DNA of 64,000 nt. Source: Ornithinimicrobium cerasi. Its GTDB lineage: Bacteria; Actinomycetota; Actinomycetes; Actinomycetales; Dermatophilaceae. Location of the stretch: contig NZ_QZMN01000004.1 of NCBI RefSeq assembly GCF_003702705.1, positions 1 through 64,000 on the forward strand, written 5' to 3'. The notes below the pieces were generated by a model that did no database searches, was not told the DNA's origin, and worked only from the letters and a program-made list of their open reading frames with translations. A program made the position numbers and the translations under genes. Positions 1 through 63,909 of the stretch are shown here, in pieces (positions within the stretch are counted from its first letter, which is position 1; each line of letters begins with the position of its first letter).

Positions 1-435
1 GCTGACGTCCTCGTCTTCCTGGCGGTCAGCTGCATCCCCAGCAGGCGGCTCCTCCAGATCTTCGCGGAGGCAGCCACTAACGGCCAGACGACCACCCCGA
101 CGCTGTGGCACAGCTCGGTGAGCGGGCTGACCGCCGCTCCCTCGGTCTGCTACCCCGTCGCCGGTGGGATCGACGCACTTCGTGCCGACCGCGACGACAC
201 GACCGATCCGGTCCCGGTCCCGGGACAGCGGTGGCGTCACTCCTTCGCGATGACGGCCCGCGACTGGCTGCTCGTGCTGCCTGCAGTCCACTCGGCCCAC
301 CCCTTCGGTATGGCGTCGTCCGCCGTCGAGGACGTCTTCACCACGAGCTCGGTACGCCTCCGCCAGGTGCCCGGCGCGACGGCATACCGGCGCCGCCCCC
401 ACCTGCGCGACCTCCCCGTTCCGGCCTCGGCCTGA
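1..435 (+). CDS. Hypothetical protein, C-terminal part (cut by window edge)
   Basis: The frame is open from the first base and ends in TGA at 433-435, leaving 144 residues; the start lies upstream of the window. G/C-rich third codon positions support real coding. I recognise no family. Visible are a short hydrophobic stretch near the left end (VFLAVSC), another around residues 85-92 (WLLVLPAV), and an Arg/Pro-rich end. No catalytic motif or lipobox is visible. A GGCATACC octamer at 381-388 falls on Ala-Tyr codons. Function unknown. Confidence 0.45.
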   Translation, partial: ADVLVFLAVSCIPSRRLLQIFAEAATNGQTTTPTLWHSSVSGLTAAPSVCYPVAGGIDALRADRDDTTDPVPVPGQRWRHSFAMTARDWLLVLPAVHSAHPFGMASSAVEDVFTTSSVRLRQVPGATAYRRRPHLRDLPVPASA

Positions 436-553
436 TGGCAGGCAGGAGTCACTTAATGGGTGAGGCGTGGGGTCACCTTCACCACCAGGGCAACCCCGAA
501 CAGGCTGGGAGTGACATGCCGACGATGACAGCTTGCGGAGGAGGGGAGCCGGC

Positions 554-853
554 ATGAGCGCTCAGCCCGTCTCCGTCGCCTCCCTGTGGGAGTGGCAGCA
601 GCACGGTCTCTGCCGGCAGCTCAGCCCTGAGGTGTTCTTCCACCCGGACGGCGAGCGGGGTCCGTCCCGCCGCTGGCGCGAGAACCGGGCGCTGGCGACC
701 TGCGCGCAGTGCCCGGTCCTGCAGCAGTGCCGGGAGCACGCGCTGCGGATGCAGGAGCCCTACGGCACCTGGGGCGGGATGACCGAGAGCGAGCGGCAGG
801 TCCTCCTGGCCGCCGGCAAGGCTCCTCGCCTGCAGGACAGCGACGCCGTCTAG
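554..853 (+). CDS. WhiB-family iron-sulfur transcription factor
   Basis: A 99-residue Wbl protein. The four cluster-binding cysteines are Cys20, Cys50, Cys53 and Cys59 (C...CxxCx5C), followed by the family turn GTWGG at 71-75 and a short basic tail. Wbl proteins bind a 4Fe-4S cluster and usually act with the primary sigma factor region 4. The ATG at 554 is chosen because GGAGGAGGGG lies 7 bases upstream; an earlier in-frame TTG would overlap that site. There is no AT-hook after the GTWGG turn, so it is not WhiB7-like. Which Wbl subfamily it belongs to cannot be decided by eye. It is probably monocistronic. Confidence 0.9.
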   Translation: MSAQPVSVASLWEWQQHGLCRQLSPEVFFHPDGERGPSRRWRENRALATCAQCPVLQQCREHALRMQEPYGTWGGMTESERQVLLAAGKAPRLQDSDAV

Positions 854-907
854 CAGTGCGTAGCCGGGCTCGTCCCCGCACCGTGGGGGGCTGGTGGAGG
901 GACGCCC

Positions 908-1531
908 CTAGGGCTCGTCCTGGGCGCAGATCCGGGCCATCTCCTCCAGGTAGTCGGACAACGGGGCAAGGCCCACCCGGGCGCGGGCGGCGTCCACCAC
1001 CGCCTCGTCGGCGATCGGGGTGGCCGGCTCCGGTCCGTCGGGCCCGCAACCGACCTGCGTGCCGTAGGTCTGTGCCCGGCCGCTGCCGACGGCGACACGG
1101 TCGGTGAGATAGGCGAGGTTCCCCGGTGAGGCGTCCCCGCGCTCGACGGCCTCACCGATCAGCTGCACCGCCCGGGCCTGGAACTCCGGGTCGTGGTCGG
1201 AGTGCTGGGCGATCGCCCAGGCGGCGTCCTCCCCGTCCTCACCGACCAGGGAGATGGTCGGCCATCCGTGCTCGGCCACGATCTGCTTGAGTCGCTCGGT
1301 GCGGTCGGCGTCGTCGAGCGGGCCGGCACCCAGCCGCTCCTCCTGGTCGGCCTCGAGCATGGCCATGAGCTCGTCGTGCAGCGCCTCGTCGAAGGCGACG
1401 GCCGGTGTCGAGGTCGTGGCGACGTCCGCGTCCACCCCGGCCGTCGACCCTCGACGGTCCTCGGTGCTGCCGCACCCAGCCAGCACGGCCACCAGCACCG
1501 TCGCGGTCACCGTCGTCGTCGCCGTACGCAT
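908..1531 (-). CDS. DUF6624 domain lipoprotein
   Basis: A 207-residue predicted lipoprotein. The first 20 residues form a signal sequence ending in the lipobox LAGC, with Cys20 as the lipidation site, followed by a Thr/Asp-rich linker. The body carries the GWPTISLVG and AWAIAQHSDH stretches and the LTDRVAVGSGRAQTYGTQ segment that I associate with DUF6624, a domain of unknown function. It would be anchored on the outer face of the membrane. It stands alone between whiB and the TPR gene. Role unknown. Confidence 0.75.
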   Translation of the reverse strand: MRTATTTVTATVLVAVLAGCGSTEDRRGSTAGVDADVATTSTPAVAFDEALHDELMAMLEADQEERLGAGPLDDADRTERLKQIVAEHGWPTISLVGEDGEDAAWAIAQHSDHDPEFQARAVQLIGEAVERGDASPGNLAYLTDRVAVGSGRAQTYGTQVGCGPDGPEPATPIADEAVVDAARARVGLAPLSDYLEEMARICAQDEP

Positions 1532-1704
1532 GAGATGCCCCTGCTGTGGACGCTCAGGGAGCGTCCGCGCCCCCGCCCGTTTGCCAGCTCGGGATCACGG
1601 GCACGGAGGAAGGCCCCGCCCACTCCGGTCACCCGCTCCATACGCCCACCCTGCCACGGTGGACGCTGCCCCGGGTCGTGCGCGACGCACCGTGTGGTGC
1701 CGGA

Positions 1705-2154
1705 CTAGCGGTTCCGGGCCTCCTGCACCCGCGACCTCAGGCGCTCCAGCCCACCCCGGACCATCGTCCCGTAGCCGTCGGTCGGGAGGACGTCCAGGAC
1801 CTGCAGGCCCACGGCGAGCTGCGCCTCGGCGTCGGCGACCCGACCCTGGCGCAGGTAGCCGTCCCCGAGGTTCAGATGCAGGCTGGGAGCCATGGCCGCG
1901 GCCGAGGTGATGCCCACGGGTGCGAGGTCCGCGTCGGCGACCTCCGCATGCTCCGTCAGGGCCGTCCGGTCCCAGCCCACCTCGTCGTCCAGCGTCGGTT
2001 GCAGATCGGCAAGGTAGTGGGCGATCACGCACCGCTGCGCGTGATCGCTCCCCTCCGTGGCCTCCCAGCAGGCGGTCAGGACCCGGAGCCCCTCCTCACG
2101 ATCCCCACCCAGGGCGAGCCCGACCGCCGCCACGACCTCGTCCCAGTCAGCCAT
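1705..2154 (-). CDS. Tetratricopeptide-repeat-like protein
   Basis: 149 residues starting MADWDEVVAAVG. Helical pairs with small residues at regular spacing (for example LNLGDGYLRQGRVADAEAQL near residues 97-116) look like one or two TPR units in the C-terminal half; TPRs are protein-interaction scaffolds. The ATG at 2154 is 5 bases after the trxA stop, so the two are probably co-transcribed and translationally coupled. The same frame stays open further upstream, but that part is a shadow of trxA. Partner unknown. Confidence 0.65.
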   Translation of the reverse strand: MADWDEVVAAVGLALGGDREEGLRVLTACWEATEGSDHAQRCVIAHYLADLQPTLDDEVGWDRTALTEHAEVADADLAPVGITSAAAMAPSLHLNLGDGYLRQGRVADAEAQLAVGLQVLDVLPTDGYGTMVRGGLERLRSRVQEARNR

Positions 2155-2159
2155 GTCGC

Positions 2160-7659: not shown

Positions 7660-9507
<1,848 letters not shown>

Positions 9508-9530
9508 GGCGCACCGGCGTCCCGTGACGG

Positions 9531-9566
9531 CGAGCGGCATACCCCGGGGGAGGGGTATGCCGCTCG
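9531..9566 (+). terminator. Hairpin from inverted GGCATACC/GGTATGCC pair
   Basis: Arm CGAGCGGCATACCCC (9531-9545) and its exact complement at 9552-9566 form a 15-bp stem with a 6-base loop, 23 bases after the hppD stop. No T-run follows. The core of each arm is the octamer that recurs through the window. It probably ends or protects the hppD transcript. Confidence 0.7.
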
Positions 9567-9632
9567 CGGCGCCTGCGCACCCACGCGCGCCGGGTGCCGA
9601 CGACAGGCGCCCGGCATGGCAGGGTGTGCCGT

Positions 9633-11744: not shown

Positions 11745-11790
11745 CCTTCTCCTTCTCGGGTATGCCGTGCGCCCGGCTCCGCGGGCGTCC

Positions 11791-14508: not shown

Positions 14509-15894
14509 GTGAGCACGACCGACGTCATCCGGGCCACGGACGAGGTGCGGATCCTCGTTCTCGAGACGCCGTCACTCGGGGACCGCAGCTATCTCGCGCA
14601 CGACAGTGAGGTGGCCCTCGTGGTCGACCCGCAGCGCGACATCGACCGGGTCCTCCGGCTCGCCGAGGACGAGGGGGTGCGCATCACGCACGTCCTGGAG
14701 ACGCACATCCACAACGACTACGTCACCGGGGGACTGGCGCTCGCGGAGGCGACGGGTGCGGCATACCTCGTCAACGGGGAGGACGCCGTCTCCTTCGAAC
14801 GGGTCCCGGTGCGGGACGGTGAGGTCGTGGAGGTGTCGCCGACGATGTCGATCCGCGTCATCGCCACGCCCGGCCACACCTTTACCCACCTCTCCTACGC
14901 GCTGCTCGCGGACCGCCAGGAGGTCGGCGTGTTCACGGGTGGCTCGATGCTGTTCGGCTCGACCGGACGGCCCGACCTGCTCGGCCCCGACCACACCGAG
15001 GCGCTGGTGCACCACCAGTACGCCTCCACCCACCGGCTCGCGCACGAGCTGCCGGCCGACGTCCACGTCCTGCCCACCCACGGCTTCGGGTCGTTCTGCT
15101 CCGCCGGCTCCAGCGAGGGGGCCACCGCGTCGACCATCGGCCGGGAGCGCCGCGAGAACCCGGCGCTGACGCAGGAGGAGGATCGCTGGGTCGAGCAGAC
15201 GCTCGCCGGCCTCGACGCTTTCCCCGCCTACTACGCCCACATGGGGCCGGCGAACGCCGCGGGCCCGGACGCCGTCGAGCTCGACCCGCCCGCGCGGGCC
15301 GACAAGGACGCCATCGCCCGGAGCCTGCGCGACGGTGAGTGGGTGGTCGACCTGCGCAACCGCACCGCGTTCGCCGCCGGGCACGTCGTGGGCACCCTCA
15401 ACATCGGGATCGACGGCCAGTTCTCCACCTATCTCGGCTGGCTGATCCCCTGGGGAACCCCCCTCACCCTGCTCGGCGAGACGCCGGAGCAGGTGGCCGA
15501 GGCCCAGCGGGAGCTGGTCCGGATCGGCATCGACGAGCTCGAGGGGGCTGCCACCGGCGGGCCCGCCGACTGGACCGACGCCGAGCCGGGCAGCTTCCCG
15601 CGCGCGCAGTTCGCCGACCTCGCCCAGGTCCGGCACCACCGCCCGGTCACCGTGCTCGACGTGCGCCGCGCCCCGGAGCACGCGGACGGCCACATCGAGG
15701 GGGCGGTGAACGTACCCATCCACGAGATCCTCGGCCGGCTGGGTGAGCTGCCCGACGGGGAGATCTGGGTGCACTGCGCCGGCGGCTACCGCGCCTCGGT
15801 GGTCGCCTCCGTCCTCGCCGCGTCCGGCCGGCAGGTGGTCGCCGTGGACGACAGCTTCGAGCGCGCCGGCGGGGCCGGCCTGCCGATCGTCTGA
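14509..15894 (+). CDS. Persulfide dioxygenase-rhodanese fusion (MBL fold plus two rhodanese domains)
   Basis: 461 residues. The metallo-beta-lactamase domain has THIHNDYVTG (His66, His68, Asp70) and TPGHTFTHLSY. A first rhodanese-like domain (about 265-360) has VVDLRNRTAFAAGH but no catalytic Cys loop. The second (about 375-461) has CAGGYR with Cys423. Such fusions oxidise persulfide to sulfite and can pass sulfane sulfur on. GTG at 14509 is preceded by GGAAGGA. The divergent CstR-like gene and twin operators indicate induction by sulfane sulfur. The frame stays open far upstream, but that is a shadow of hmgA. Confidence 0.93.
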   Translation: MSTTDVIRATDEVRILVLETPSLGDRSYLAHDSEVALVVDPQRDIDRVLRLAEDEGVRITHVLETHIHNDYVTGGLALAEATGAAYLVNGEDAVSFERVPVRDGEVVEVSPTMSIRVIATPGHTFTHLSYALLADRQEVGVFTGGSMLFGSTGRPDLLGPDHTEALVHHQYASTHRLAHELPADVHVLPTHGFGSFCSAGSSEGATASTIGRERRENPALTQEEDRWVEQTLAGLDAFPAYYAHMGPANAAGPDAVELDPPARADKDAIARSLRDGEWVVDLRNRTAFAAGHVVGTLNIGIDGQFSTYLGWLIPWGTPLTLLGETPEQVAEAQRELVRIGIDELEGAATGGPADWTDAEPGSFPRAQFADLAQVRHHRPVTVLDVRRAPEHADGHIEGAVNVPIHEILGRLGELPDGEIWVHCAGGYRASVVASVLAASGRQVVAVDDSFERAGGAGLPIV

Positions 15895-16809: not shown

Positions 16810-18111
16810 TCAGCTCCAGTCGTCGAGGTACTCGGTGGGGATGGCGGCCTCGCCGTGCGAGAGCCGCAGCGCGGTGACGGGCAGCTCGGCGCGGGACCGG
16901 GCGTGCCGCTCCCGGGCGGAGCCGGCGTCGGTCGGGGCCACCACCTCACCGTCCGCCACCAGGCGGACGAGGAGCTCGCGGTCGTCGCCGTCGTCCTGCG
17001 GACGCTCGTCGATGCCGATGATCTCGGCCCTGGCCACGCCGGCCGCCGAGCGCCGCCGCAGGGCGAACTTGCGGCCACCCACGCTCGCCTTGTCCTTGCT
17101 GGCCTTGGCGACCCCCTCCATGCGGCCGGCGTCGCTCTCCCGGCTGACGAGCTTGTAGACCATCCCGGCAGCCGGGTGGCCGGACCCCGTCACGACGCTG
17201 GTGCCGACCCCGTAGCGGTCGACGGGCGCGGCCTGCAGGGCGGCGATGGCGTGCTCGTCCAGGTCCGACGTGACCACGATCCGGGTGCCCCGGGCGCCGA
17301 GCGCGTCCAGCTGGGCGCGCACCTCGTGCGCCTGCCCGACGAGGTCGCCCGAGTCCAGCCGCACCCCGCCCAGCTCCGGGCCCGCCAGCTCCACGGCGAG
17401 CTCCACGGCGGCGGTCACGTCATAGGTGTCCACCAGGAGCGTGGTCTGCAGCCCCAGGCTCGCGAGCTGGTTGGCGAAGGCGTCCCGCTCGTCGTCGTGC
17501 AGGAGGGTGTAGGAGTGGGCGGCGGTCCCCGCAGTGGGGATGCCGTGCCGGCGCCCCGCCTCGAGGTTGGAGGTCGAGGCGAAGCCGGCGATGTAGGCGG
17601 CCCGGGCCGCCGCCACCGCCGACTCCTCGTGGGTGCGCCGCGACCCCATCTCGATGCACGGGCGGTCACCGGCCGCCGCCGTCATCCGGGAGGCTGCGGA
17701 GGCGACCGCCGAGTCGTGGTTGAGGACGGACAGGATGAGGGTCTCCAGGACCACGCCCTCGGCGAAGGTCGACTCGACCACCATGAGCGGTGAGCCCGGG
17801 AGGTAGACCTCGCCCTCGGCATACCCCCAGATGTCGCCGGAGAAGCGGTAGCCCGCGAGCCAGTCCAGCGTCCGGTCGTCGACCACCGAGCGCTCGCGCA
17901 GGTAGGCGATCTCCTCCTCCCCGAAACGGAAGTCGCGCAACGCCTCCAGCACGCGGCCGGTCCCGGCGAGCACGCCGTAGCGACGGCCGTCGGGCAGCCG
18001 ACGGGCGAAGGCCTCGAAGACGCAGGGGCGGTCGGCGTGACCGCTGCGCATCGCGGCCTGGATCATCGTCAGCTCGTAGTGGTCCGTCAGCAGCGCCGTG
18101 CTCGGGTTCAC
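16810..18111 (-). CDS. pncB: Nicotinate phosphoribosyltransferase
   Basis: 433 residues. Landmarks are TDHYELTMIQAAMRSG at the N-terminus, EMGSRRTHEESAV (about residues 155-167), TSNLEAGRRHGIPTAGTAAHS, GVRLDSGDL and GVGTSVVTG for the phosphate, and a C-terminal YKLVSRES segment. It makes nicotinate mononucleotide from nicotinate and PRPP, committing salvage to NAD. GTG at 18111 has TACGCT seven bases before it on the minus strand and no Shine-Dalgarno, a leaderless arrangement. It is the first gene of pncB-pncA. Confidence 0.94.
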   Translation of the reverse strand: MNPSTALLTDHYELTMIQAAMRSGHADRPCVFEAFARRLPDGRRYGVLAGTGRVLEALRDFRFGEEEIAYLRERSVVDDRTLDWLAGYRFSGDIWGYAEGEVYLPGSPLMVVESTFAEGVVLETLILSVLNHDSAVASAASRMTAAAGDRPCIEMGSRRTHEESAVAAARAAYIAGFASTSNLEAGRRHGIPTAGTAAHSYTLLHDDERDAFANQLASLGLQTTLLVDTYDVTAAVELAVELAGPELGGVRLDSGDLVGQAHEVRAQLDALGARGTRIVVTSDLDEHAIAALQAAPVDRYGVGTSVVTGSGHPAAGMVYKLVSRESDAGRMEGVAKASKDKASVGGRKFALRRRSAAGVARAEIIGIDERPQDDGDDRELLVRLVADGEVVAPTDAGSARERHARSRAELPVTALRLSHGEAAIPTEYLDDWS

Positions 18112-19092: not shown

Positions 19093-20646
19093 ATGACGAC
19101 TCACCCTGCCGCCGCCTCCGCCACCGAGGACACCGAGGTCACGGGCGCCGACGTGCGCGTCCGCTTCTGCCCCAGCCCGACCGGGACCCCGCACGTGGGC
19201 ATGGCCCGCACCGCCCTGTTCAACTGGGCGTTCGCCCGTCACCACGGCGGCACCTTCGTGTTCCGCATCGAGGACACCGACGCCGCGCGCGACTCCGACG
19301 CCTCCGTCGAGCAGCTGGTGGAGGCGCTGGACTGGCTCGGCCTGGACCACGACGAGGGCCCCGGGGTCGGCGGTCCCTACGGTCCCTACCGGCAGAGCGA
19401 GCGGCACGAGCTGCACGCTGACGTGGCCAGACGGCTCCTGGAGGCCGGCCTCGCCTACGAGTCCTGGTCGACCCCCGAGGAGGTCGAGGCTCGGCACCGG
19501 GCCGCCGGCCGCGACCCCAAGCTGGGCTACGACAACGCCGACCGGGACCTGGGCGAGGAGGAGGTCGCGGCATACCGCGCGCAGGGGCGGGAACCGGTGC
19601 TGCGGCTGCGGATGCCCGACGAGGACCTCACCTTCACCGACCTGGTGCGCGGGGAGGTGACCTTCCGGGCCGGCTCCGTGCCCGACTTCGTCATCGTCCG
19701 GGGCAACGGTCAGCCGCTCTACACCCTGGTCAACCCGGTGGACGACGCGACGATGCGCATCACCCACGTCATCCGGGGCGAGGACCTCCTCTCCTCGACC
19801 CCCAGGCAGATCGCGCTCTACCGCGCCCTGATCGAGATCGGGGTGGCCGAGCGGGTGCCGACGTTCGCGCACCTGCCGCTCGTGCTGGGCGAGGGCAGCA
19901 AGAAGCTGTCGAAGCGGGACCCGCAGTCCGACCTGTTCCTGCACCGCGAGCGCGGGTTCGTCCGGGAGGGGATGATCAACTACCTCGCGCTGCTGGGGTG
20001 GTCGATCGGCCCCGACCGCGACATCTTCGAGCCCGACCAGCTGGTCGAGGCCTTCGACGTGCGGGACGTCAACCCCAACCCGGCGCGCTGGGACCAGAAG
20101 AAGGCGGAGTCGATCAACGGCGACCACCTGCGCCGGCTTCCGTTGGCGGAGTTCACCTCCCGCCTGCTGCCCGTGCTGCGGGAGGCCGGGGTGCTGGGGG
20201 AGCGGTCCGGGATGGGCGAGCTCGCCCGGCTCAAGGACGTGGCCGACCTCATCCATACACGCATCCAGGTGCTCTCCGAGGCGGTCCCGCTGGTCCGGCC
20301 CTTCTACGTGCGGGGCGAGGAGCTGCAGATCGCGGACGACGCCCGGAGCCAGCTCAAGGAGGACAGCGCGGCAGTCCTGGACGCCGCGGTCGCTGCGCTG
20401 GAACCGATCTCGGGTGCCTTCCCGCAGCCGCTCGGCGGCGGGGTGGAGTGGACCTCGGAGCGCATCGAGGAGGCGCTGCGCGTGGCGCTCGTCGAGGGGA
20501 TGGGCCTCAAGCCGCGGCTCGCCTTCGGGCCGGTGCGGACGGCCGTGTCCGGTCAGCGGATCAGCCCGCCCCTGTTCGAGTCGATGGCCATCCTGGGCAA
20601 GCACGAGACCCTCGCCCGGCTGCGCCGGCTCCGCTCCGAGCTCTGA
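19093..20646 (+). CDS. gltX: Glutamyl-tRNA synthetase
   Basis: 517 residues, class I. Signature 1 is HVGM (in place of HIGH) in [17 protein letters not shown]; the KMSKS loop is KKLSKR followed by DPQSD. It charges tRNA-Glu and, where GatCAB is used, also mischarges tRNA-Gln. Both tRNA-Gln and tRNA-Glu genes lie immediately downstream. The first about 20 residues before [11 protein letters not shown] are an extra tail. TAGGCT lies 9 bases before the ATG, so besides read-through from DUF2017 an internal leaderless-type start is possible. Confidence 0.96.
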
Positions 20647-21933: not shown

Positions 21934-22638
21934 TCACGGCACCGGCGCGAGGAGCAGGACGCCGCCGCCCAGGGCCGCCACGCAGGTCAGCCAGAACAGC
22001 GCGATCCACACCCCGGCGGGCAGGCCGGTGAGGCCGGCCAGCTGGTCGGCGTCGCTCGTCCGGTCGCGGCGCCCGCGGCGTGCGCGCTGCATCTCCATCA
22101 CCGACCGCGGGGTGGCGAGCAGGAGCACCCACACCACGAGGTATGCCGTGCCCGTCACCACGGGTCCGGGGGCGGACCACGACAGGCCGGCGACCACGGA
22201 CCCGGTGAGCAGGACGACCCACAGGCCGTAGAGGTTGCGGACGAGGGCCAGGAGGACCGCGCAGGTGAGCACGAGCGACCAGAGCAGGCCCGCGGCATAC
22301 CCCGCACCGAGCAGGAGCGCACCGAGCACCCCCACGGCGGCGGGCGCGGGGTAGCCCGCGAGCAGCGTCGCGACCATCCCGGGACCGCGGGGACGGCCGT
22401 GCGAGACCGTGAGACCGGACGTGTCGGAGTGCAGGCGGACCCCACGCACCCGCCTCCCGACGAGCCGCGCCACGAGGGCGTGACCGACCTCGTGGAGGAG
22501 GGTGACGAGGTGGCGCACGACCCGGTAGCCCGCCGGGCTCCAGGTGAGAGCCAGCGCGAGCAGGCCCAGGGCCAGCGAGGCCTCCCAGGACAGCGGCGGC
22601 TGGGTCGTCGTCACCCGGCCCCAGATGTCGCTCAGCAC
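21934..22638 (-). CDS. M50-type membrane metalloprotease
   Basis: About 234 residues from the GTG at 22638; an earlier GTG at 22731 would overlap the VOC gene and has no better ribosome site, so the start is uncertain. The zinc motif is HEVGHA near residue 48, inside a first hydrophobic region. Several transmembrane segments follow (ALLLGAGYAAGLLWSLVL, YLVVWVLLLATP and the C-terminal helix). It looks like the short M50B-like peptidases of actinobacteria. The second metal motif (usually NPDG-like) is not evident, so activity is uncertain. It converges on the HU gene with 3 bases between. Confidence 0.75.
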   Translation of the reverse strand: MLSDIWGRVTTTQPPLSWEASLALGLLALALTWSPAGYRVVRHLVTLLHEVGHALVARLVGRRVRGVRLHSDTSGLTVSHGRPRGPGMVATLLAGYPAPAAVGVLGALLLGAGYAAGLLWSLVLTCAVLLALVRNLYGLWVVLLTGSVVAGLSWSAPGPVVTGTAYLVVWVLLLATPRSVMEMQRARRGRRDRTSDADQLAGLTGLPAGVWIALFWLTCVAALGGGVLLLAPVP

Positions 22639-24316: not shown

Positions 24317-24909
24317 CGGCCGGGCTGCGGGTCGTCCCCGCCAACGAGGCGCCCTGGGAGGACCTCGCCGCCGTCCTCGGCACCCGTGGCCCGGCGAGCC
24401 GGTGCTTCTGCCAGCGCTACAAGCTGGCCCGGGGGGAGTCCTTCGCCGCCGTCCCGGCCGAGGAGCGTGCCTGGCGGCTGCGGGTGCAGACCGGCTGCGG
24501 GGACCCCGGCTCGGCAACCACGAGCGGGCTCGTCGCTTACCTCGACGGGGAACCGGTGGGGTGGTGCGCGGTGGAGCCGCGCGCGGCATACCAGGGCCTG
24601 GTGCGGGTCTTCACGGTGCCCTGGAAGGACCGGGACGAGGACCGGGAGGACGAGACGGTGTGGGCGGTGACCTGTCTCTTCGTGCGCGCCGGGCGGCGCC
24701 GGAGCGGCATCAGCCGGGCGCTGGCCAGGGCGGCCGTCACCCATGCGCGAGAGCGGGGGGCTCGTGCGCTGGAGGCCTACCCGATGCTCACCACGGCGGC
24801 CGTCGAGGAGGAGCTGCACGTGGGCACGGTGGGGACGTTCGCCGCAGCCGGGATGACCCAGGTCTCGGCACCGACGCCGCGCCGGGTGGTGATGCGCGTC
24901 GAGCTCTGA
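24313..24909 (+). CDS. GNAT-family N-acetyltransferase
   Basis: 198 residues from GTG at 24313, a 4-base overlap with the YcaQ-like stop. The GNAT core has a Cys-rich start (SRCFCQRYK), LVAYLDGEPVGWCAVEPR, VWAVTCLFVRAGRRRSGISRAL (acetyl-CoA pyrophosphate loop variant RRRSGI) and EAYPM. The CFCQ pattern is typical of a subset found in actinobacteria. Substrate unknown. It is translationally coupled to the glycosylase. Confidence 0.85.
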   Translation: MTAGLRVVPANEAPWEDLAAVLGTRGPASRCFCQRYKLARGESFAAVPAEERAWRLRVQTGCGDPGSATTSGLVAYLDGEPVGWCAVEPRAAYQGLVRVFTVPWKDRDEDREDETVWAVTCLFVRAGRRRSGISRALARAAVTHARERGARALEAYPMLTTAAVEEELHVGTVGTFAAAGMTQVSAPTPRRVVMRVEL

Positions 24910-41189: not shown

Positions 41190-42089
41190 GTGCCCGAGCT
41201 GCCCGAGGTCGAGGTGGTGCGGCGCGGGCTGGCCCACCACGTCGTGGGGCGCACGGTCTCGCGTGCCGTGCTCACCGGGTCACGGGTGGCACGACGCCAC
41301 GCCGCCGGACCGACCGACCTCACCGACCGGGTCGTGGGCGCGCGCATCCTCGCCGCGGACCGTCGCGGGAAGTACCTCTGGCTCGTCCTCGAACCCCCCG
41401 AGGACGACATCCTCGCGCTCGTCGTCCACCTCGGCATGAGCGGCCAGCTCCTCGTCCAGGACGCCGCGGCCGCGCCGGAGAAGCACCTGCACGCCCGCTT
41501 CGACTTCACCGACGGCGGGCCGCAGCTGCGGTTCGTCGACCAGCGCACGTTCGGCGGGCTGGCGCTCGCGGAGCTGCACGCCGACCAGCGCGGCGCCCCG
41601 GACGGGGTGCACGTGCACGGCATACCCGCCCCGGTCCTGCACATCGCCCCCGACCCCCTCGAGCCCGCGTTCGACCGTGCCGGGACGGTGCGCCGGATGC
41701 GGTCGCGGGACAGCGAGGTCAAGCGCGTGCTCCTCGACCAGTCCGTGGTGAGCGGCATCGGCAACATCTACGCCGACGAGGCGCTGTGGCGCGCGGGCGT
41801 GCACGGTCGTCGGTCCGCCTCCGCGCTGACCCGGCCCGCCCTGGCCCGGGTCCTCGACCACGCCGCGGAGGTGATGCGCGAGGCGCTGGGTCAGGGCGGG
41901 ACGAGCTTCGACGCGCTGTACGTCAACGTCAACGGCGCCAGCGGCTACTTCGACCGCTCGCTCGCCGTGTACGGCCAGACCGGCCGACCGTGCCCCCGCT
42001 GCGGGACCCCCGTGCTGCGCGAGCAGTTCATGAACCGCTCCTCCCACTTCTGCCCGCGGTGCCAGCCGCGACCACGGGTGAGCCGGTAG
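41190..42089 (+). CDS. mutM: Formamidopyrimidine-DNA glycosylase
   Basis: 299 residues from GTG at 41190. Mature N-terminal Pro2 ([14 protein letters not shown]) is the nucleophile and Glu3 is catalytic; RRGKYLWL holds the conserved Lys. H2TH motif is around [18 protein letters not shown]-terminal zinc finger has CPRCGTPV and HFCPRCQ. It removes 8-oxoguanine and formamidopyrimidines. It is the last gene of the yceD operon and converges with the oxidoreductase gene, with one base between the stops. Confidence 0.96.
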
Positions 42090-43430: not shown

Positions 43431-43523
43431 CGCGCCGGCCCGGTCCGTCCGCCTGCCGGGTCACGGCATACCGCGCGGGTATCGTGACGGCACCAGCCCC
43501 GTCGACCGGAGAAGCGCGACCGC

Positions 43524-46500
43524 GTGTACGTCAAGAGCCTGACCCTGCGGGGTTTCAAGTCGTTCGCCTCCGCGACGACCCTGCGCCTGGAGCCCGGCAT
43601 CACCTGCATCGTGGGGCCCAACGGCTCGGGCAAGTCCAACGTCGTCGACGCGCTGGCGTGGGTCATGGGCGAGCAGGGGGCGAAGAGCCTGCGCGGCGGC
43701 AAGATGGAGGACGTCATCTTCGCCGGCACCTCCGGCCGCCCCCCGCTGGGCCGGGCCGAGGTGTCGCTGACGATCGACAACAGCGACGGCGCCCTGCCGA
43801 TCGACTACGCCGAGGTGACGATCACCCGCACGATGTTCCGTTCCGGCGGGTCCGAGTACGCCATCAACGGCACCGGCTGCCGCCTGCTGGACGTGCAGGA
43901 GCTGCTGTCCGACAGCGGGATCGGTCGCGAGATGCACGTCATCGTGGGCCAGGGCCAGCTCGACACCGTCCTGCGGGCCACGCCGGAGGAGCGCCGCGGC
44001 TTCATCGAGGAGGCGGCCGGCGTCCTCAAGCACCGCAAGCGCAAGGAGCGGGCGCTGCGCAAGCTGGAGTCGATGGAGGGCAACCTCACCCGCCTCGGCG
44101 ACCTCACCACCGAGATCCGCCGGCAGCTCGGACCCCTGGGTCGGCAGGCCGAGACGGCCCGCCGGGCCGCGACGATCCAGGCCGAGGCGCGTGACGCCCG
44201 GCTGCGCATCCTCGCCGACGACCTCGTGCAGCTCACCAGCGCGCTGGAGCAGGAGATCGCCGACGAGCGGGCCCTGGTCCGTCGCCGCGAGGCCGCCCAG
44301 GAGGCGCTCGCGACCGCCGAGGAGGCGGTCGCCGGCCTCGAGGCCGAGCGGGCCCGGCTGACGCCGGCCCTGACCGAGGTGCAGGACCGGTGGTACACCC
44401 TGTCGTCGCTCGTGGAGCGTCTGCGCGCCCTGCGTGACCTCGCGGGCGAGCGCGTCCGTCTCCTCGGGGCCGAGGAGGAGGAGCTGCGCGCCGAGGAGCA
44501 GGGGCGTGGCGGCGCGAGCTCCCGCGACCCCGAGCAGCTGCGCGCCCAGGCCGAGCAGGTGCGGGCCCAGGAGACGGCGCTGCTCGCCACGGTCGCGGAC
44601 CTGGCCAGGGCGCTCGCCGACGCCGAGGAGGAGCGCTCGGCCGCCGAGGCCGCGCACGCCGAGGAGCAGGCGCGGCTGCAGCGGCTGGCGCGGGCCGTGG
44701 CCGACCGGCGCGAGGGCCTGGCCCGGCTCGCCGGTCAGGTCGCGGCCCGGCGTACGCGCGTCGAGGCGGGGGAGGGCGAGGTCGCGCGTCTCACCGAGGC
44801 GGCGCAGGCGGTCCTGGGACGGGCGTCGAGGGCGGAGCAGGACTTCGCCGCGCTGGAGTCGACGGTGCTCGACGTCGAGCAGGGCGAGGAGGGGCTGGAC
44901 GAGGCCCACGAGCAGGCCGAGGAGCGACGCGTGTCGGCCGAGACCGAGGTGCGTCGTCTCGAGGAGGAGCTGCGCGAGGCCCAGGGGGAGCAGGGGGCCC
45001 ACCGCGCCCGGGTGGAGGCGCTCGCCCTGAGCCTGCGGCGGACCGACGGCGCCAGCGCGCTGCTCGCGGAGGGCGGCCAGGGTCACGGGGTGAAGGGCTC
45101 GCTCAGCGGTCGCCTGCGCGTGGAGGCGGGTCGGGAGGCCGCGGTCGCCGCCGCCCTGGGCTGGGCCGCCGAGGCGCTCGTCGTCGACGGGCTGGACGGC
45201 GCCCGCGCCGCGCTGCGCTGGCTGCGGGAGCAGGACCAGGGCCGGGCCGGTCTGCTCGTGGACGGGTCCGTCGTCGGGGGGACGGGGACGGAGCCGGCCT
45301 GGCCGGACCTGCCCGGGTATGCCGTGTGGGCCGCCGACGTCGTCCGTGTGCCGGGCGGGGACACAGCGCTCGGCGGGGTGGTCACCGGGCTGCTGGACCG
45401 GGTGGCGCTCGTGGGTTCCGACGAGGAGGCGTCCCGGCTCGTCCGCGAGCTCCCCGGGGTGACGGCGGTGACGGACGCGGGGGACGTCTACGGCCCGGGC
45501 TGGGTGCGCGGCGGCTCCAGCGCGGCGCCCAGCCTCCTCGAGCTGCAGTCCGCCCACGACGAGGCCCAGGCGGGCGTGGCCACGGCGACCGCGCGGGCGG
45601 AGCGCCTCACCTTCGAGCTGGGCGCCGCCCGGACGGCGCTCGAGGCCGCGGAGAGCGAGGCTGACGCCACGCTGGAGGCGTTGCACGAGAACGACGCCCG
45701 GATGACCGCCGTCGCCGAGCAGCTCGCCCAGCTGGGGCAGACCATGCGGGGCGCCCGGTCGGAGCACGAGCGCACGGCGGCGGCGATCGGCACCGCCCAG
45801 CAGCGTCTCGAGGCGGCCCGGACCGAGCTGGAGGAGCTGCAGGGACGGCTCGTCGCCGCCGAGGAGGAGCCGGGGCAGACCGCGGAGCCGGACACCGCCG
45901 AGCGCGAGCGGCTCGCGGAGGTTGCGGCCCGGGCCCGCAGCGCAGAGACCGAGGCCCGGCTGGCGCTGCGCACCTCCGAGGAGCGGGCCCGGGCGCTGAC
46001 CGGCCGCGCCGAGGGGCTGGAGGCGGCGGCGCGCAACGAGCTGGCCGCCCGGCAGCGTGCCGCCGCGCGGCGTGCCCGCCGGGCCGAGGACCGGCGCACG
46101 GCGGAGGCGGTGGCGACGGGCGCGGCATACCTGCTGGAGCGGGTGGGCGAGCTGCTGGGCGTCGCGACGACCGGACGTGACGCCGCCCGCGCCGAGCAGG
46201 CGCGGCTCGACGAGACGACGGCCCGGGCGCGCACCCGGGTGAGCGAGGTCGCGGCCGAGCTCCGCGACGTCACCGACTCGGTGCACGCCGACGAGATCGC
46301 CCGGGCGGAGCAGCGCCTGCGGATCGAGGCGCTGGAGACCAGGGCGGTGGAGGAGCTGGGGGTGGACGCGGTGACGCTGGTCGAGGAGTACGGACCCCAC
46401 CGGCCGGTGCCGCACGTGCCCGGTCCGGACGAGTCGCCCGACGACCCCGACCTGCCCGGCCCGACGCCCTTCGTCCGGGAGGTGCAGGACAAGCGGCTGC

Positions 46501-49714: not shown

Positions 49715-50631
49715 GTGTGCACGGACAGCTGCGAGCTGCCCGGGGCGTTGCGCGGCTCCGAGGGGTCGCCGAGCGCCCAGCCCACGGCCCGGGTGCCGAC
49801 CGTGCCGAGCGGGCCCGCGACGGCGCGCAACGTCATACCCTCCAGGCCGCGCAGCGGCGCGGGCAGGTGCAGCCCGAGCAGGTCCCGCGCGTAGCCCGGC
49901 AGCAGCTCCACCGCCCCCGCGGCGAGCATCCAGAACCCCGGCCGCGCGGCCCACGGCAGGGGCGGCTCGAGCAGCAGGAAGCGGACCACGTCGAGCGCGC
50001 CGGGGGTCGTCTCGAGCTCGGGTCGGTATGCCGCGAGCGCCGTCCCGAGCTCGTGCACCGTCCGCGGCGGGTCGGGGATGCCCAGGCGGGTCGCGACGTA
50101 GGACGCCTGGTCGACGTAGCGGTCGGCCTCGGCCGGCGTGAGGGGGCGGCGGGCGTAGCGCTGGTGCGCGACGAGGAAGCTGTCGATCTCGGCGACGTGC
50201 ACCCACCGCAGCAGGTGCGGGTCGCTCGCCGCGTAGGGACGGCCCAGCCGGTCGGCCCCCGACACCGTCTCGTGGATCCGGTTGATCCGGTCCAGCATCC
50301 GCTCGGCCGCCTCGGCGGGGCCGAACGTCGTCATCGCCAGGAACTCGCTGGTGCGCTGCAGGCGCCCCCACGGGTCGTCGCGGTAGCCGGAGTGCTCGCC
50401 GACGCCGGCCATCGCCAGGGGGTGGAGCGACTGGAGGAGCAGGGCGCGGATGCCCCCGGCATACATCCCGGCATGACCCTGGACCCGGCAGATCGGGTCG
50501 TCGGGGGCGAACCGCCGCTCGCCCGGGGCGAGCCAGATGCTGTGCGCTCGACGGTCGGCGTCCGGACCCGCCACCCGGTCGCGCAGGGCCAGGGCGAGCC
50601 GACGTCGGGCGGTGGCGATGGGGGAGCGCAC
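49702..50631 (-). CDS. Oxygenase MpaB-like protein (DUF2236)
   Basis: 309 residues from GTG at 50631. Family segments are PDDPICRVQGHAGMYAGGIRALLLQSLHPLAMAGV (in overlapping windows), HSGYRDDPWGRLQRTSEFLA, then LLRWVHVAEIDSFLVAHQRY (a likely heme His-Val-His pair), and LPLPWAARP. MpaB-type proteins are heme b oxygenases or latex clearing-protein relatives; substrate unknown. Its start is divergent from ffh across only 22 bases. Its end is inside the 52-bp repeats. Confidence 0.85.
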   Translation of the reverse strand: MRSPIATARRRLALALRDRVAGPDADRRAHSIWLAPGERRFAPDDPICRVQGHAGMYAGGIRALLLQSLHPLAMAGVGEHSGYRDDPWGRLQRTSEFLAMTTFGPAEAAERMLDRINRIHETVSGADRLGRPYAASDPHLLRWVHVAEIDSFLVAHQRYARRPLTPAEADRYVDQASYVATRLGIPDPPRTVHELGTALAAYRPELETTPGALDVVRFLLLEPPLPWAARPGFWMLAAGAVELLPGYARDLLGLHLPAPLRGLEGMTLRAVAGPLGTVGTRAVGWALGDPSEPRNAPGSSQLSVHTPLR

Positions 50632-54708: not shown

Positions 54709-55812
54709 ATGAGCGCACCGGTGCTGCACGTCCGTGGCCAGGTCCTGGTCGGTCCCGAGGAGGTGCTCGGCGAGGTCTGGGTGCTGGACGGGAGGATCAG
54801 CCTCAGCCCGCCCACCTCCGGAGAGGTCGAGACCGTGGACGGGTATGCCGTGCCCGGTCTCGTGGACGCCCACTGCCACGTGGGGCTCGAGGCGCACGGG
54901 GCGGTGGACGAGGAGCGCACCGAGCAGCACGCGCTCGCGGAGCGGGACGCAGGTGCGCTGCTCCTCCGTGACGCCGGCAGCCCGGCCGACACGCGGTGGG
55001 TGCAGGAGCGCGAGGACCTGCCCCGGCTGATCCGCGCCGGCCGCCACATCGCCCGGACCAGGCGTTACCTGCGCAACTTCGCGTGGGAGATCGAGCCCGA
55101 GGACCTCGTCGCCCACGTCCGCCAGGAGGCGCGCGACGGCGACGGCTGGGTCAAGCTCGTGGGGGACTGGATCGACCGGGAGACCGGCGACCTGGCCGTC
55201 TGCTGGCCGGTGGACGTGCTCACCGAGGCCATCGCGGCCGCCCACGAGGAGGGCGCGCGGGTCACGGCGCACTGCTTCGGCGAGCAGTCGCTCGTCGACT
55301 TCGCCGCGGCCGGCACCGACTGCATCGAGCACGCGACCGGGCTCGTCGACGACACCATCGACACCTTCGCGCGGCAGGGCATCGCGATCGTGCCGACGCT
55401 GGTCAACATCGACAACTTCCCGAAGTTCGCGGAGGCCGGCCGGGGCAAGTTCCCGACCTACGCCGACCACATCATGGACCTGCACGAGCGCCGCCACGAG
55501 ACGGTGGCCAAGGCCCACGAGGCGGGCGTGCCGGTCTACGTCGGCACCGACGCGGGCGGCCAGCTGCCGCACGGCCTCGTCGCGCGCGAGGTCGAGGCGC
55601 TGACCCGGGCCGGGATGTCGAACCTCGAGGCGATCGGTGCCGCGACCTGGGCGGCCCGCGCCTGGCTGGGGCGGCCGGGCATCGCGGAGGGGGAGTCGGC
55701 CGACCTGGTCGTCTACCGCGACGACCCCCGCGAGGACGTGCGCACCATGGTCGACCCGCACCGGGTCATCCTCCGGGGCCGGGCGCACGAGCACTCCGGC
55801 GCCCGGGGCTGA
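54709..55812 (+). CDS. Amidohydrolase family protein
   Basis: 367 residues. Metal-dependent hydrolase fold: VDGYAVPGLVDAHCHVGLEAHG (HxH), GAVDEERTEQHALAERD, then RVTAHCFGEQSLVDF, DCIEHATGLVDDT and VYVGTDAGGQLPHGL (Asp). It is imidazolonepropionase- or prolidase-like in pattern but substrate unknown. GAGGAGG precedes the ATG by five bases. Ends 3 bases before the aceB stop (convergent). Confidence 0.9.
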   Translation: MSAPVLHVRGQVLVGPEEVLGEVWVLDGRISLSPPTSGEVETVDGYAVPGLVDAHCHVGLEAHGAVDEERTEQHALAERDAGALLLRDAGSPADTRWVQEREDLPRLIRAGRHIARTRRYLRNFAWEIEPEDLVAHVRQEARDGDGWVKLVGDWIDRETGDLAVCWPVDVLTEAIAAAHEEGARVTAHCFGEQSLVDFAAAGTDCIEHATGLVDDTIDTFARQGIAIVPTLVNIDNFPKFAEAGRGKFPTYADHIMDLHERRHETVAKAHEAGVPVYVGTDAGGQLPHGLVAREVEALTRAGMSNLEAIGAATWAARAWLGRPGIAEGESADLVVYRDDPREDVRTMVDPHRVILRGRAHEHSGARG

Positions 55813-55815: not shown

Positions 55816-57387
55816 TCAGGCGGCCTCGGTGACGGGCTCCCCGAGGCGCAGCAGGACCTCGTAGGCCCGCACCGAGAGGAAGGCCGGGGGCTCGTCCGTG
55901 ACCACCGACTCGCGCAGGAGCGTGACGGCGTGCGCCAGCAGCTCCTCGCGCGCGCCGCGCCGGCGCAGGAGCGCCACCTCATCCTCCATGACCCGGTCCA
56001 GGAGGAGCGGCGACATGGTCGGCCCCTCCGCGAACCGCTGGCCGTGGGTCATCCACTGCCACAGCTGCATCCGCGCCAGCTCGACGGTGCCGAAGTCCTC
56101 GATGTGGCCCTGCAGGGTCAGCGTCCCCTCGCCGGCCAGCCACCCGGTGAGGTAGGTCAGCGCCGACCGCAGCGCGGTCCGCATACCGGTCAGCGTCGCG
56201 CTGCCGGGGAGTGAGCTGACGTCCCGCAGCGCGGCGGCGTCCACCGTCCCCGAAGGCACCTCGCCCCCCTCGCGCAGCCGCTCCTGGGCGTCGGTGCCGA
56301 CCCGGCGGTCACGGTCCTCGAACGGGGTGCGGACCACCGGCACCAGGCCCGGGTGGAGCGCCCAGGCGCCGTCGAACCCCTGCTTGGACTCGCGCGCCTT
56401 GTCACGGTGGACGCGGGCGTGGGTCATCGCCACCGACTCGTCGAAGGGCCCGCTCGCCGCCAGCGCCACGGGCCCGCCGATGGCCTGGACCCCGCGCCGG
56501 TGGCAGGTGCGCACGATCACGTCGGTGTAGGCGCGCAGGAAGCGCGTGTTCATGGTGAACGAGTCCCGGTCGGGGAGGGCGTGGTCCGGCCGCTGCCCGT
56601 AGGTGCGCAGGTAGGAGAAGACGTAGTCCCACCGTCCGGCGGTGAGCCCGGTCACGCGCTCACGGAGCACGTGCAGGATCTCCTCCAGCTGGTATGCCGC
56701 CTGCACGGTCTCCACGAGCACGCTCACCCGGGTGCACCCCGGGGACAGACCGAGCGCCTCCTCCGCCCGTCCCAGCATGGCGTCCCACCAGGCCGCCTCC
56801 TGCCAGGTCTCCAGCTTGGGCATGTAGAGGTAGGGGCCGCTGCCGTTGTCCGCGAGGATCTGACCGTTGAGGGCCAGGAAGGTGACGACGTCGGCGACCG
56901 GGGCGCTCAGCGGCTCCCCGTCCACCTGCGCGTGCGCCTCGACGAGATGAAGCCCCCGGGGCCGGACCATGAGCGTCGGGACGCCCGGCCGGGCGTCCCC
57001 CGTGCGGGTGGCGGCGACGTCGGAGATGACGCGGTGGGCGGTCTCGAGGCGGCGCTGCGTAGGCACGAGCATGTCCTCCAGGTCGGCCACCCAGACGTCG
57101 GCCCCGGTGGCCAGGACACCCTTGGCCGCCTCCGCCGTGGCGGGGGTGGCGAGCTCGACGAGGCGGTAGGTCAGGTCCGCGGGCGGCGGAGCGACCCGCC
57201 AGTGCGGGTCCTCCCGGATCGCCCTCGTCTCCTCCGGCTGGGCGAGCTCGGCTCCGGCCAGGACCGCACGGGACTGCTCCTTGCGGGCGTTGAGCAGCGA
57301 CTTTCGCTCCTCCCGGCCGGCCCGCTCCACGCTCTCCACGGCCGCGAGCTGGTCGGCGTCCAGCAGGTGGTTCAGGTAGCTGTCCAT
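55816..57387 (-). CDS. aceB: Malate synthase A
   Basis: 523 residues. TGLTAGRWDYVFSYLRTYGQRPDH and FTMNTRFLRAYTDVIVRTCHRRG are active-site segments, GGPVALAASG and FDGAWALHPGLVPV are typical of the A isoform. In the C-terminus GHIEDFGTVELARMQLWQWM replaces the common NLMEDAATAE form but keeps the catalytic Asp. It condenses glyoxylate with acetyl-CoA to malate. It lies downstream of aceA, separated by a strong hairpin. Confidence 0.95.
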   Translation of the reverse strand: MDSYLNHLLDADQLAAVESVERAGREERKSLLNARKEQSRAVLAGAELAQPEETRAIREDPHWRVAPPPADLTYRLVELATPATAEAAKGVLATGADVWVADLEDMLVPTQRRLETAHRVISDVAATRTGDARPGVPTLMVRPRGLHLVEAHAQVDGEPLSAPVADVVTFLALNGQILADNGSGPYLYMPKLETWQEAAWWDAMLGRAEEALGLSPGCTRVSVLVETVQAAYQLEEILHVLRERVTGLTAGRWDYVFSYLRTYGQRPDHALPDRDSFTMNTRFLRAYTDVIVRTCHRRGVQAIGGPVALAASGPFDESVAMTHARVHRDKARESKQGFDGAWALHPGLVPVVRTPFEDRDRRVGTDAQERLREGGEVPSGTVDAAALRDVSSLPGSATLTGMRTALRSALTYLTGWLAGEGTLTLQGHIEDFGTVELARMQLWQWMTHGQRFAEGPTMSPLLLDRVMEDEVALLRRRGAREELLAHAVTLLRESVVTDEPPAFLSVRAYEVLLRLGEPVTEAA

Positions 57388-61157: not shown

Positions 61158-61159
61158 TC

Positions 61160-62066: not shown

Positions 62067-62809
62067 CGCTTCGTCTCGACGTCGTCACGATCTTTCCCGA
62101 CTACCTGGCGCCGCTGGAGCTCTCGCTCATCGGCCGGGCGCGCCGCGAAGGTCTGCTCGAGGTGCACGTGCACGACCTTCGCGACTGGACCGCCGACCGG
62201 CACCGCACCGTGGACGACACCCCCTACGGAGGGGGGGCGGGCATGGTCATGAGGCCCGAGCCCTGGGGCGCCGCCCTCGACGAGGTATGCCGCTCCGCCC
62301 CCGGGCGGACCCCCCACCTCGTCGTCCCCGGCCCGGGAGGGGACCCGTTCACCCAGGCCACGGCGCACCGGCTGGCGACGCAGGACTGGCTCGTCTTCGT
62401 CTGCGGCCGGTACGAGGGCATCGACGAGCGGGTCTACGAGGAGTTCGGCGCGCGCTACCCGCTCTCGGTGCTCAGTCTCGGTGACTACGTGCTCAACGGC
62501 GGCGAGGTCGCGGTGCTGGCGATGACGGAGGCCGTCGCGCGCCTGGTGCCCGGGGTGATCGGCAACCAGGCCAGCCTGGACGAGGAGTCCCACACGGGCG
62601 GGTTGCTGGAGTACCCCGTCTACACCAAGCCCCCGGTGTGGCGCGGCCGGGAGGTCCCTCCGGTCCTCCTGTCCGGGCACCACGGCCAGATCGCCGCATG
62701 GCGGCAGCAGCAGCGGCTCGAGCGCACCGCCCGCCGTCGCCCGGACCTCCTCGAGGGCTACCTCGACGGCCAGGGTGGCACCGCGGCGGCGGAGGGCTGG
62801 GACGCCTGA
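62063..62809 (+). CDS. trmD: tRNA (guanine-37-N1)-methyltransferase
   Basis: 248 residues from GTG at 62063, a 4-base overlap with rim[55 protein letters not shown] (knotted SAM site), [21 protein letters not shown] and [14 protein letters not shown] are family markers. It methylates G37 next to the anticodon, preventing frameshifting. Confidence 0.96.
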
Positions 62810-62823
62810 GCACGGCGGGTGCC

Positions 62824-62829
62824 TACGAT
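62824..62829 (+). promoter_or_regulatory. -10 box TACGAT of serB (leaderless type)
   Basis: TACGAT, six bases, then GTG at 62836. It lies in the 26-base gap after trmD. Confidence 0.5.
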
Positions 62830-62835
62830 CAGGCC

Positions 62836-63714
62836 GTGCACGTCCTCACCCTCCTCACCGACCCCGCCCGGGCCGACCTCACCGAGGCGGCGCTCCGCGA
62901 GCTGTCCGGCTGGGGACCGCGCTCGCCGCGGTGGCTCGCCGACGGCGTCGCGCTCGAGGCCACCCTGGACCTCCTCCCGGCGGACCGGTGGGAGGCGTGG
63001 GGCCGCTGGCAGGAGCGGGGCGTCGACCTGGTGCTGCAGCCCGCGGCGGGACGCCGCAAGAAGGTCCTCCTCGCCGACATGGACTCGACGATGATCCAGC
63101 AGGAGTGCATCGACGAGCTGGCCGCGCACGCAGGGGTGGGGGAGCACGTCGCCGGCATCACGGCGCGGGCGATGAACGGCGAGCTCGACTTCGCCGAGGC
63201 GCTGCGCTCGCGGGTGGCGCTGCTCGCGGACCTGCCGACCGCCGTCGTCGACACCGTCCTGTCCGAACGCATCACGCTGATGCCCGGGGGGAGCGAGCTG
63301 GTCGCGACGATGCGTGCCCACGGCGCCTACACGGCCCTGGTGTCCGGCGGGTTCACCCAGTTCACGGGCGCCGTCGCGGGGCGGCTCGGCTTCGACGAGC
63401 ACCGGGCCAACACGCTCGCGGTCGACGGTGGGCGGTTCACCGGCCGGGTCCTCGAGCCGGTCGTGGGCCGCGAGGCCAAGGTCGCGGCCCTCCGGGAGAT
63501 CACGGCGGAACTCGGACTGACGCCCCGGGACGCCATCGCGGTGGGGGACGGCGCCAACGACCTGGACATGCTGCGCCTCGCGGGGACCGGGGTCGCCCTC
63601 CACGCCAAGCCGGTCGTGGCCGAGCAGGTCGAGGTGCGCGTCAACCACGGTGACCTGACGGCGCTCCTCTACCTGCAGGGGTATGCCGCCGCGGACCTGC
63701 TCCGGCCGGGGTGA
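62836..63714 (+). CDS. serB: Phosphoserine phosphatase
   Basis: 292 residues from GTG at 62836. HAD-fold: DMDSTMIQQECIDELA (nucleophile Asp81, Asp83), SGGFTQF, and GDGANDLDMLRLAGTGVA. A N-terminal helical part (about 75 residues) precedes it without an ACT domain. It makes serine from phosphoserine. Independent TANNNT box and no Shine-Dalgarno suggest its own leaderless transcript despite the trmD neighbourhood. Confidence 0.93.
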   Translation: MHVLTLLTDPARADLTEAALRELSGWGPRSPRWLADGVALEATLDLLPADRWEAWGRWQERGVDLVLQPAAGRRKKVLLADMDSTMIQQECIDELAAHAGVGEHVAGITARAMNGELDFAEALRSRVALLADLPTAVVDTVLSERITLMPGGSELVATMRAHGAYTALVSGGFTQFTGAVAGRLGFDEHRANTLAVDGGRFTGRVLEPVVGREAKVAALREITAELGLTPRDAIAVGDGANDLDMLRLAGTGVALHAKPVVAEQVEVRVNHGDLTALLYLQGYAAADLLRPG

Positions 63715-63718
63715 CGGT

Positions 63719-63748
63719 TTGGCCGGGGTCCTCCCGGTCTGGCAGACT
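63719..63748 (+). promoter_or_regulatory. Promoter of rplS
   Basis: TTGGCC (63719-63724) and CAGACT (63743-63748) spaced 18 bases. The leader is about 155 bases and contains a hairpin GTGCCCG (63847-63853) / CGGGCAC (63857-63863) and a GGCATACC octamer (63833). Confidence 0.55.
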
Positions 63749-63909
63749 TGACCCTTGCGTCCCTGACCCGGCACCACCGAGCTCGCGCCCCTGCCACAGG
63801 GGGAGTCGCGCGAGCGGAGCGCGGCGAGGGACGGCATACCGACAGCGTGCCCGCCCCGGGCACCAGATCGCCGTGGGTGACCTGTGGCATCGACGGCAGG
63901 AGAGAAGCC

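Follow-up and report, generated by a model that had tools for sequence, protein, structure and literature searches.

Certain bacteria take up mainly the DNA of their kin, and the word described here owes its interest to its likeness to the identity tags known from such systems. According to passages of a 2016 review, sequence-specific uptake occurs in two families, the Pasteurellaceae and the Neisseriaceae, and their DNA uptake sequences (DUS) and uptake signal sequences (USS) number hundreds to several thousands of copies per genome (PMC5031613). In an actinobacterium, Micrococcus luteus, transformation depends on the Flp pilin and on each of the two tad clusters, as excerpts of a published study report (PMC4322843). 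Here we analyze a short iterated word in Ornithinimicrobium cerasi (genome G000, 3.83 Mb), starting from the initial 64,000 nucleotides of its contig C51 (73.5% G+C), hereafter called the window. The word is over-represented, strand-neutral in our samples, selected at the DNA level, conserved by site and widespread in its actinobacterial family, some members of which use other words instead. We consider it probable, at roughly 0.6, that the full motif RGGTATGCCG(T/C)G serves as a taxon-specific DNA uptake sequence for natural transformation by a Tad-type pilus.

A preliminary description of the window, made from its letters, had listed 26 exact copies of the octamer GGTATGCC and claimed a strong excess. 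Each listed position does hold the octamer or its complement, with the reported split of 12 forward and 14 reverse copies, and 100 dinucleotide shuffles of the window yielded a mean of only 0.62 copies and a maximum of 4. The complement reads GGCATACC, so the octamer is not a palindrome, and neither is the longer motif of which it forms part. As had been claimed, the copies occupied all coding phases as well as intergenic positions. The excess extends to the whole genome, in which we counted 1127 octamers (578 forward and 549 reverse; about one per 3.4 kb) against 18 copies of the reversed word used as a control, as well as 1077 copies of the nonamer GGTATGCCG, hereafter word A. Both counts lie within the range reported for DUS and USS.

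The word itself was real, while the octamer proposed as its unit turned out to be only the centre of a longer motif, approximately RGGTATGCCG(T>C)(G). Among 219 copies in 604 kb of G000, the octamer was followed by G in 99% of cases and then by T in 52%, and was preceded by an enrichment of A and a depletion of T. In the same sample, GGTATGCCGT occurred 114 times, where an order-3 Markov model predicts 0.86 copies, and GGTATGCCGTG 68 times against 0.27. A looser seed, TATGCC (303 places), led to the same core GGTATGCCG, with information declining on both flanks, giving a fixed core of about nine bases with graded edges; in the motif alignments, no strong shared sequence was found in the flanks beyond a few bases.

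Might such a word follow from composition, from codon or protein effects, or from a dispersed repeat family? In favour of this explanation, two of the clusters of close copies in the G000 sample consist of 53-bp tandem repeats. However, the shuffles of the window already speak against it, and so do randomizations in which synonymous codons were shuffled within genes, such that both the proteins and the codon use were preserved. Under this null, 173 octamers in coding sequence compared with a mean of 15.8 (sd 3.8, max 23), 170 nonamers with 11.0, and 93 decamers with 5.0, an 11- to 22-fold codon-aware excess. Ranked by raw count among its 1680 letter permutations, the octamer came sixth (219 copies, against a median of 12); the third-ranked permutation is the motif shifted by one base, and the other four above it lack the TA step. 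Together with the genome-wide count of 1127 against 18, the absence of strong shared flanks, and the use of other words by whole genera (below), these results led us to reject composition, codon use and permutation abundance as explanations, and we give this alternative next to no credence.

Coding nonamers populated all six phase-and-strand classes, with 134 of 220 in the two classes that read Tyr-Ala or Ala-Tyr. Intergenic copies were mildly in excess in G000 (51/277, against a non-coding share of 12%; p = 0.001), and the samples of all three dialects described below, this one included, showed such an excess (p 0.001, 0.003 and 3e-5). Coding and non-coding fractions are approximate here, because genes were called by a simple script using G+C by codon position.

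To compare individual sites, we aligned positions 1-264000 of contig C51 with positions 60001-260000 of contig C1 of the related genome G535 (139.5 kb aligned, 80.7% identity). Of 86 nonamers in G000, 53 were aligned and 27 of these were intact in G535 (binomial p = 9.5e-6 against controls), whereas control nonamers in the same alignment were intact in only 20.7 to 23.1% of cases. In the opposite direction, 38/47 nonamers of G535 were aligned and 27/38 were intact in G000 (binomial p = 5e-10). The other 26 aligned G000 sites carried 1-6 mismatches or a gap in G535, such that motif sites are both retained and turned over between the two genomes.

Stretches of lower G+C presented a different picture. 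We sampled six small or medium contigs of G000 of arbitrary number, besides C1 and C2. Five of them (C25, C35, C40, C45 and C55; 64-68% G+C, 56.7 kb) held no octamer, where 16 nonamers were expected, and the sixth (C30, 72% G+C) held four octamers in 20 kb. Contig C25 encodes an ISL3 transposase and an E1-E2 ATPase, and C35 an AAA_15/AAA_21 ATPase and a LacI regulator. The octamer-free stretches are compatible with a scarcity of the word in putatively acquired DNA.

We next turn to the family, represented by 187 genomes from 53 genera, in which we called a genome rich in a word from 100 copies upward, provided that the count was also four or more times the control, thresholds that we set ourselves. 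Genomes rich in word A numbered 113/187, in 32/53 genera, with 107 to 2198 copies. Six more genomes fell between rich and poor (52-79 copies, at least four times the control), and some genomes classed as poor showed a mild excess (G439, 245 against 118; G449, 96 against 27). Three genomes (G023, G438 and G513) held 20, 6 and 5 nonamers, a background level, while other members of their genera were rich; recent loss, a switch to another word or a misassigned assembly are the alternatives for these cases. Outside the family, in the phylum and order samples, copies were far fewer than in rich genomes and usually between one and four times as numerous as the reversed word, with exceptions. One is a 7.5-Mb genome (G087, 408 against 146). 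Others are small genomes of another family, f24, in which the octamer stood at several times the reversed control, for example 58 against 4 (G350) and 45 against 7 (G107 and G151), although at counts far below those of the window's family.

A de novo word search in 60-100 kb samples from ten motif-poor genomes uncovered other words in place of A. The outcome was clear for G520 (GCGAAGGGG, 82 copies against 3.0 expected) and G583 (GGATGCCG, 82 against 7.0), and weaker for G481 (CGAAGGGGG, 25 against 2.2). In coding sequence, the dialect nonamers again exceeded the codon null: G520 held 54 where 4.3 were expected, G481 held 18 where 3.6 were expected, and G583 held 37 copies of CGGATGCCG, against 4.6. 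Across the family, GCGAAGGGGG (word C) reached 342 to 1318 copies in 16/16 genomes of genus g273 and 3/3 of g282, as opposed to 2 to 28 copies in the other 168 genomes; none of these 19 genomes is rich in word A, which stays at background there. The G+C-rich CGGATGCCG (word B) exceeded 900 copies in 7/187 genomes, namely G583, both genomes of g256 and all four of g261, and reached at most 448, with higher controls, in every other genome. Three genomes of g261 (G463, G465 and G466) were rich in both A and B, with 492 copies of A and 1011 of B in G465. Words A and B share ATGCCG; no core that dialect C would have in common with either of them is evident.

Several weaker candidates emerged alongside these dialects. 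Nonamers containing CGTACG were enriched in G519 (L217-L219; CGTACGCCG, 25 against 2.8 in coding sequence) and G513 (L178 and L199-L202; CGCCGTACG, 30 against 6.8), and may represent one more dialect or else arise from codon usage; G519 also held seven copies of TATCGAGACC against 0.06 expected. In a 20.9-kb locus of Microbacterium ginsengisoli (L060), GGATGTCGC and GGATGCCGC occurred 9 and 10 times against 0.6-0.8 expected; they are close in sequence to dialect B and may hint at a related word in the Microbacteriaceae or reflect a codon effect. A Corynebacterium sp. metagenome-assembled genome (L065) had six dispersed copies of TTATCGACG in 20.8 kb, against 0.05 expected.

The dialects are taxon-specific and match phylogeny by genus. 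On a tree of the single protein fpg (30 rows; G343 was left out as its fpg match is partial), C was grouped and A was not: the four dialect-C rows formed one group (98/71), and the B genome G583 fell with two A genera in one starred group (100/99). Close sisters can differ, as seen for G558, in which we found no word and which pairs with G465, rich in both A and B. Contig C5 of G438 carries, besides its main fpg match, three extra fpg-like matches that are partial or second copies. An internal stop interrupts two of the three, and contamination and local duplication are the alternatives for their origin.

Strand usage was examined in 20-kb bins over 804 kb of the 3.83-Mb G000 and over 80-200 kb from each of five other genomes (G535, G007, G583, G520 and G481). 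The strands were balanced in G000 (chi-square 36.6, 41 bins, p = 0.67), no heterogeneity appeared in any of the six samples (p 0.49 to 0.90), and the 113 rich genomes pooled held 41,240 forward and 41,128 reverse copies of word A. An apparent plus-strand-only stretch of contig C1 beyond 150 kb proved to be an artefact, as the sequence there holds both strands.

These strand data bear on the possibility that the word is a recombination or chromosome-architecture signal, such as a Chi site, an FtsK-orienting site (KOPS) or a binding site of a nucleoid protein. Chi sites are likewise short words, present once per few kilobases, a density similar to that seen here. Moreover, the word was denser where G000 aligned to its relative than elsewhere (0.38 against 0.27 per kb), although not significantly (p = 0.11). 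However, both Chi and KOPS show a skew along replication arms, and the balance in 20-kb bins, a test independent of the position of the origin, argues against the two, such that we rejected them. Close inverted pairs in dialect C would also be odd for a directional site: among the 82 copies in the G520 sample, 8 pairs within 45 bp were inverted and 3 were direct, against an expectation of about three close pairs, whatever their orientation. A strand-neutral nucleoid protein is a possible variant, and taken as a whole we hold a signal of this kind to be unlikely.

A signal at the DNA level rather than an amino-acid need, as the preliminary description had argued, is supported by the excess over the synonymous-codon null, by the even use of both strands, by the retention of sites in G535 and by the presence of other words in related genera. 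The checks that it had proposed and that we ran, with the outcomes given above, were the full-genome count, the codon-aware background, the abundance of permutations and the conservation of positions in a related genome.

One kind of DNA-level signal is a HIP-like word, that is, the site of an orphan DNA methyltransferase which accumulates through coupling to mismatch repair or some other upkeep. The cyanobacterial HIP1 shows that words of this kind can be equally abundant, and passages of its published description tell of exceptional cyanobacterial genomes in which other HIP words take its place (PMC4390886). As a positive control, our k-mer scan recovered HIP1 in a cyanobacterial locus (L096). 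Against a HIP-like origin stand the lack of a palindrome, the fixed core of about nine bases with graded edges, and the difference of dialect C from A and B over nearly its entire length, features that are unlike those of usual methyltransferase sites. We judge this explanation a shade less probable than a recombination or architecture signal.

An uptake sequence fits best among these kinds of word, because the word, unlike HIP1, is non-palindromic and because its dialects are clade-specific. Dialect switching is the feature that best separates it from other kinds of iterated words. In the process we envisage, the competence apparatus would display a DNA-binding protein at the surface, probably a minor pilin of the Tad/Flp type or a protein associated with the pilus. 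This protein would bind the word on free DNA, the pilus would pull the bound DNA to ComEA/ComEC, and homologous recombination would insert it into the chromosome. Since word-bearing DNA would be taken up more often, the word would accumulate by transformation, which would both spread and restore it, and copies would build up wherever protein or RNA tolerates them. Should the taste of the receptor change, a new dialect would build up and the old one decay, leaving the lineages genetically isolated.

The competence and pilus genes of the family are relevant to this scheme. G000 carries a Tad/Flp-like pilus cluster on contig C43 (L283): a TadA-type ATPase (PF00437) and, read by eye, TadC-like and TadE-like frames and, downstream of the ATPase, a 69-aa Flp-like protein with a hydrophobic stretch and a processing motif. 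The one TadE-like frame of this cluster that was scanned had no Pfam match. ComEC (PF03772) was detected in 181/187 family genomes, rich and poor alike. Directly upstream of ComEC, a ComEA with SLBB and helix-hairpin-helix domains was found in both a motif-poor genome (G559) and a rich one (G462), and in another rich genome (G003) the SLBB domain alone scored. The PilT-type ATPase of true type IV pili exceeded the cut-off in 2/187 genomes, G515 (L251) and G585 (L252); 182 more genomes had weaker matches, such as Tad-type ATPases would presumably give. In G587, two PilT pieces below the cut-off lie on separate contigs. As traits that might track the motif, both ComEC and PilT were rejected, as neither follows the split between rich and poor genomes.

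The statistical features that we tested mostly match those of an uptake sequence, the exceptions being a hairpin excess and a clean phylogeny, both for word A. Several observations weigh against our reading. By the thresholds used, 48/187 genomes are poor in all three words; these include 12/12 genomes of genus g291, three of which were sampled (120 kb) and had no strong word. In the 60-100 kb de novo samples, G558, G588, G438, G451 and G343 showed no word. On the fpg tree, on which many forks are unresolved, the A label needs 8 changes, a number matched by 80/500 shuffles, so this tree does not establish A as a clade and implies that the word was lost or gained several times. In the G000 sample, A copies are no more evenly spaced than random (coefficient of variation 1.05), and close inverted pairs number 2 in 277 copies, where about four close pairs are expected. 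The presence of ComEC does not track the motif, because it is equally common in motif-poor genomes, and PilT, above the cut-off in 2/187 genomes, is too rare for a receptor located simply on a type IV pilus of the Neisseria kind.

Some clustered copies in G000 have a regular layout. Contigs C1 (148889-149003; L009) and C2 (113824-113937) hold dissimilar tandem arrays, each of three units of about 53 bp with one motif copy per unit, and on C2 a further, opposed pair of copies (54276/54329) is also 53 bp apart.

Within the window, the copies show varying degrees of retention in G535. Those intact there lie at 7892..7899 (+), in the nicotinate phosphoribosyltransferase gene (17818..17825, -), in a class I tRNA synthetase gene (19569..19576, -), in the M50B peptidase gene (22294..22301, -), in fpg/mutM (41619..41626, -), at 43465..43472 (-), in smc (45316..45323, +, and 46124..46131, -), at 50025..50032 (+), in an amidohydrolase gene (54842..54849, +), in the malate synthase gene (56691..56698, +) and at 63833..63840 (-). 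A second copy in the M50B peptidase gene (22140..22147, +) and that at 62284..62291 (+) have one mismatch in G535, those at 8245..8252 (-) and 38266..38273 (-) two, and the two in a CofC-like gene three (25446..25453, +) and four (25677..25684, -). Further exact matches occupy 381..388 (-), 11759..11766 (+), 14760..14767 (-), 24585..24592 (-), 29215..29222 (+) and, in a HAD hydrolase gene, 63680..63687 (+). The preliminary description held that copies force rare codons: the copy in fpg does force an ATA codon, read in frame as GGC-ATA-CC, and of its claim about lrp the location stands, as the copy at 7892 lies within a minus-strand open frame with an Lrp/AsnC domain. The remaining two copies, each with one mismatch in G535, are the left (9536..9543, -) and right (9554..9561, +) arms of an inverted pair at 9530..9567, which follows an open frame ending at 9507 and forms a 16-bp hairpin stem with no T run after it (predicted fold of 9520-9580, -42.3 kcal/mol, z -4.8).

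We would give even odds that this is the first DUS system outside the Neisseriaceae and Pasteurellaceae, set in an actinobacterial family with Tad/Flp pili and having at least three dialects, which are exclusive in most genera, coexist in g261, where they are seemingly switching, and act as mating barriers. Among the matches listed in literature searches for the octamer and its complement, judged by their titles, and for uptake sequences in Actinobacteria, Gram-positives or Intrasporangiaceae, we found no report of the motif; words B and C were not searched. If true, this would be a third, independent case, in Gram-positive bacteria and with a different pilus, implying that such tags evolve repeatedly. 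It would open a family of more than 50 genera to the study of how dialects emerge, live side by side and disappear, and would suggest that equipping donor DNA with the right word could be a simple aid to genetics in these bacteria.

Like HIP1, in the excerpts of its description, the word is short, enriched over a large group, and scarce or replaced in some members, whereas HIP1 is palindromic and contains orphan methyltransferase sites (PMC4390886). The USS of the Pasteurellaceae resembles it in being a 9-base word of hundreds to several thousands of copies, with two dialects there, according to portions of published work; unlike the word described here, it is unrelated in sequence, belongs to another phylum, and has an uptake specificity established by experiment (PMC7811141). 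The DUS of Neisseria occur in terminators, according to the title of a work in a reference list; the window has one hairpin pair, which lacks a T run. Word A shares ATGCCGT with the DUS ATGCCGTCTGAA, as given in the source passages, a likeness that we treat as a curiosity. The host here is Gram-positive, with predicted Tad/Flp-like pili rather than the type IV pili with ComP of the Neisseriaceae. In the parts of the published work drawn on here, the Neisseriaceae dialects share a core, whereas in the present family a shared core exists only between A and B. The Neisseriaceae, too, have very over-represented words of about 10 bases, several dialects within the family that follow its phylogeny, and one genome with two dialects, as excerpts of their description report (PMC3630211).

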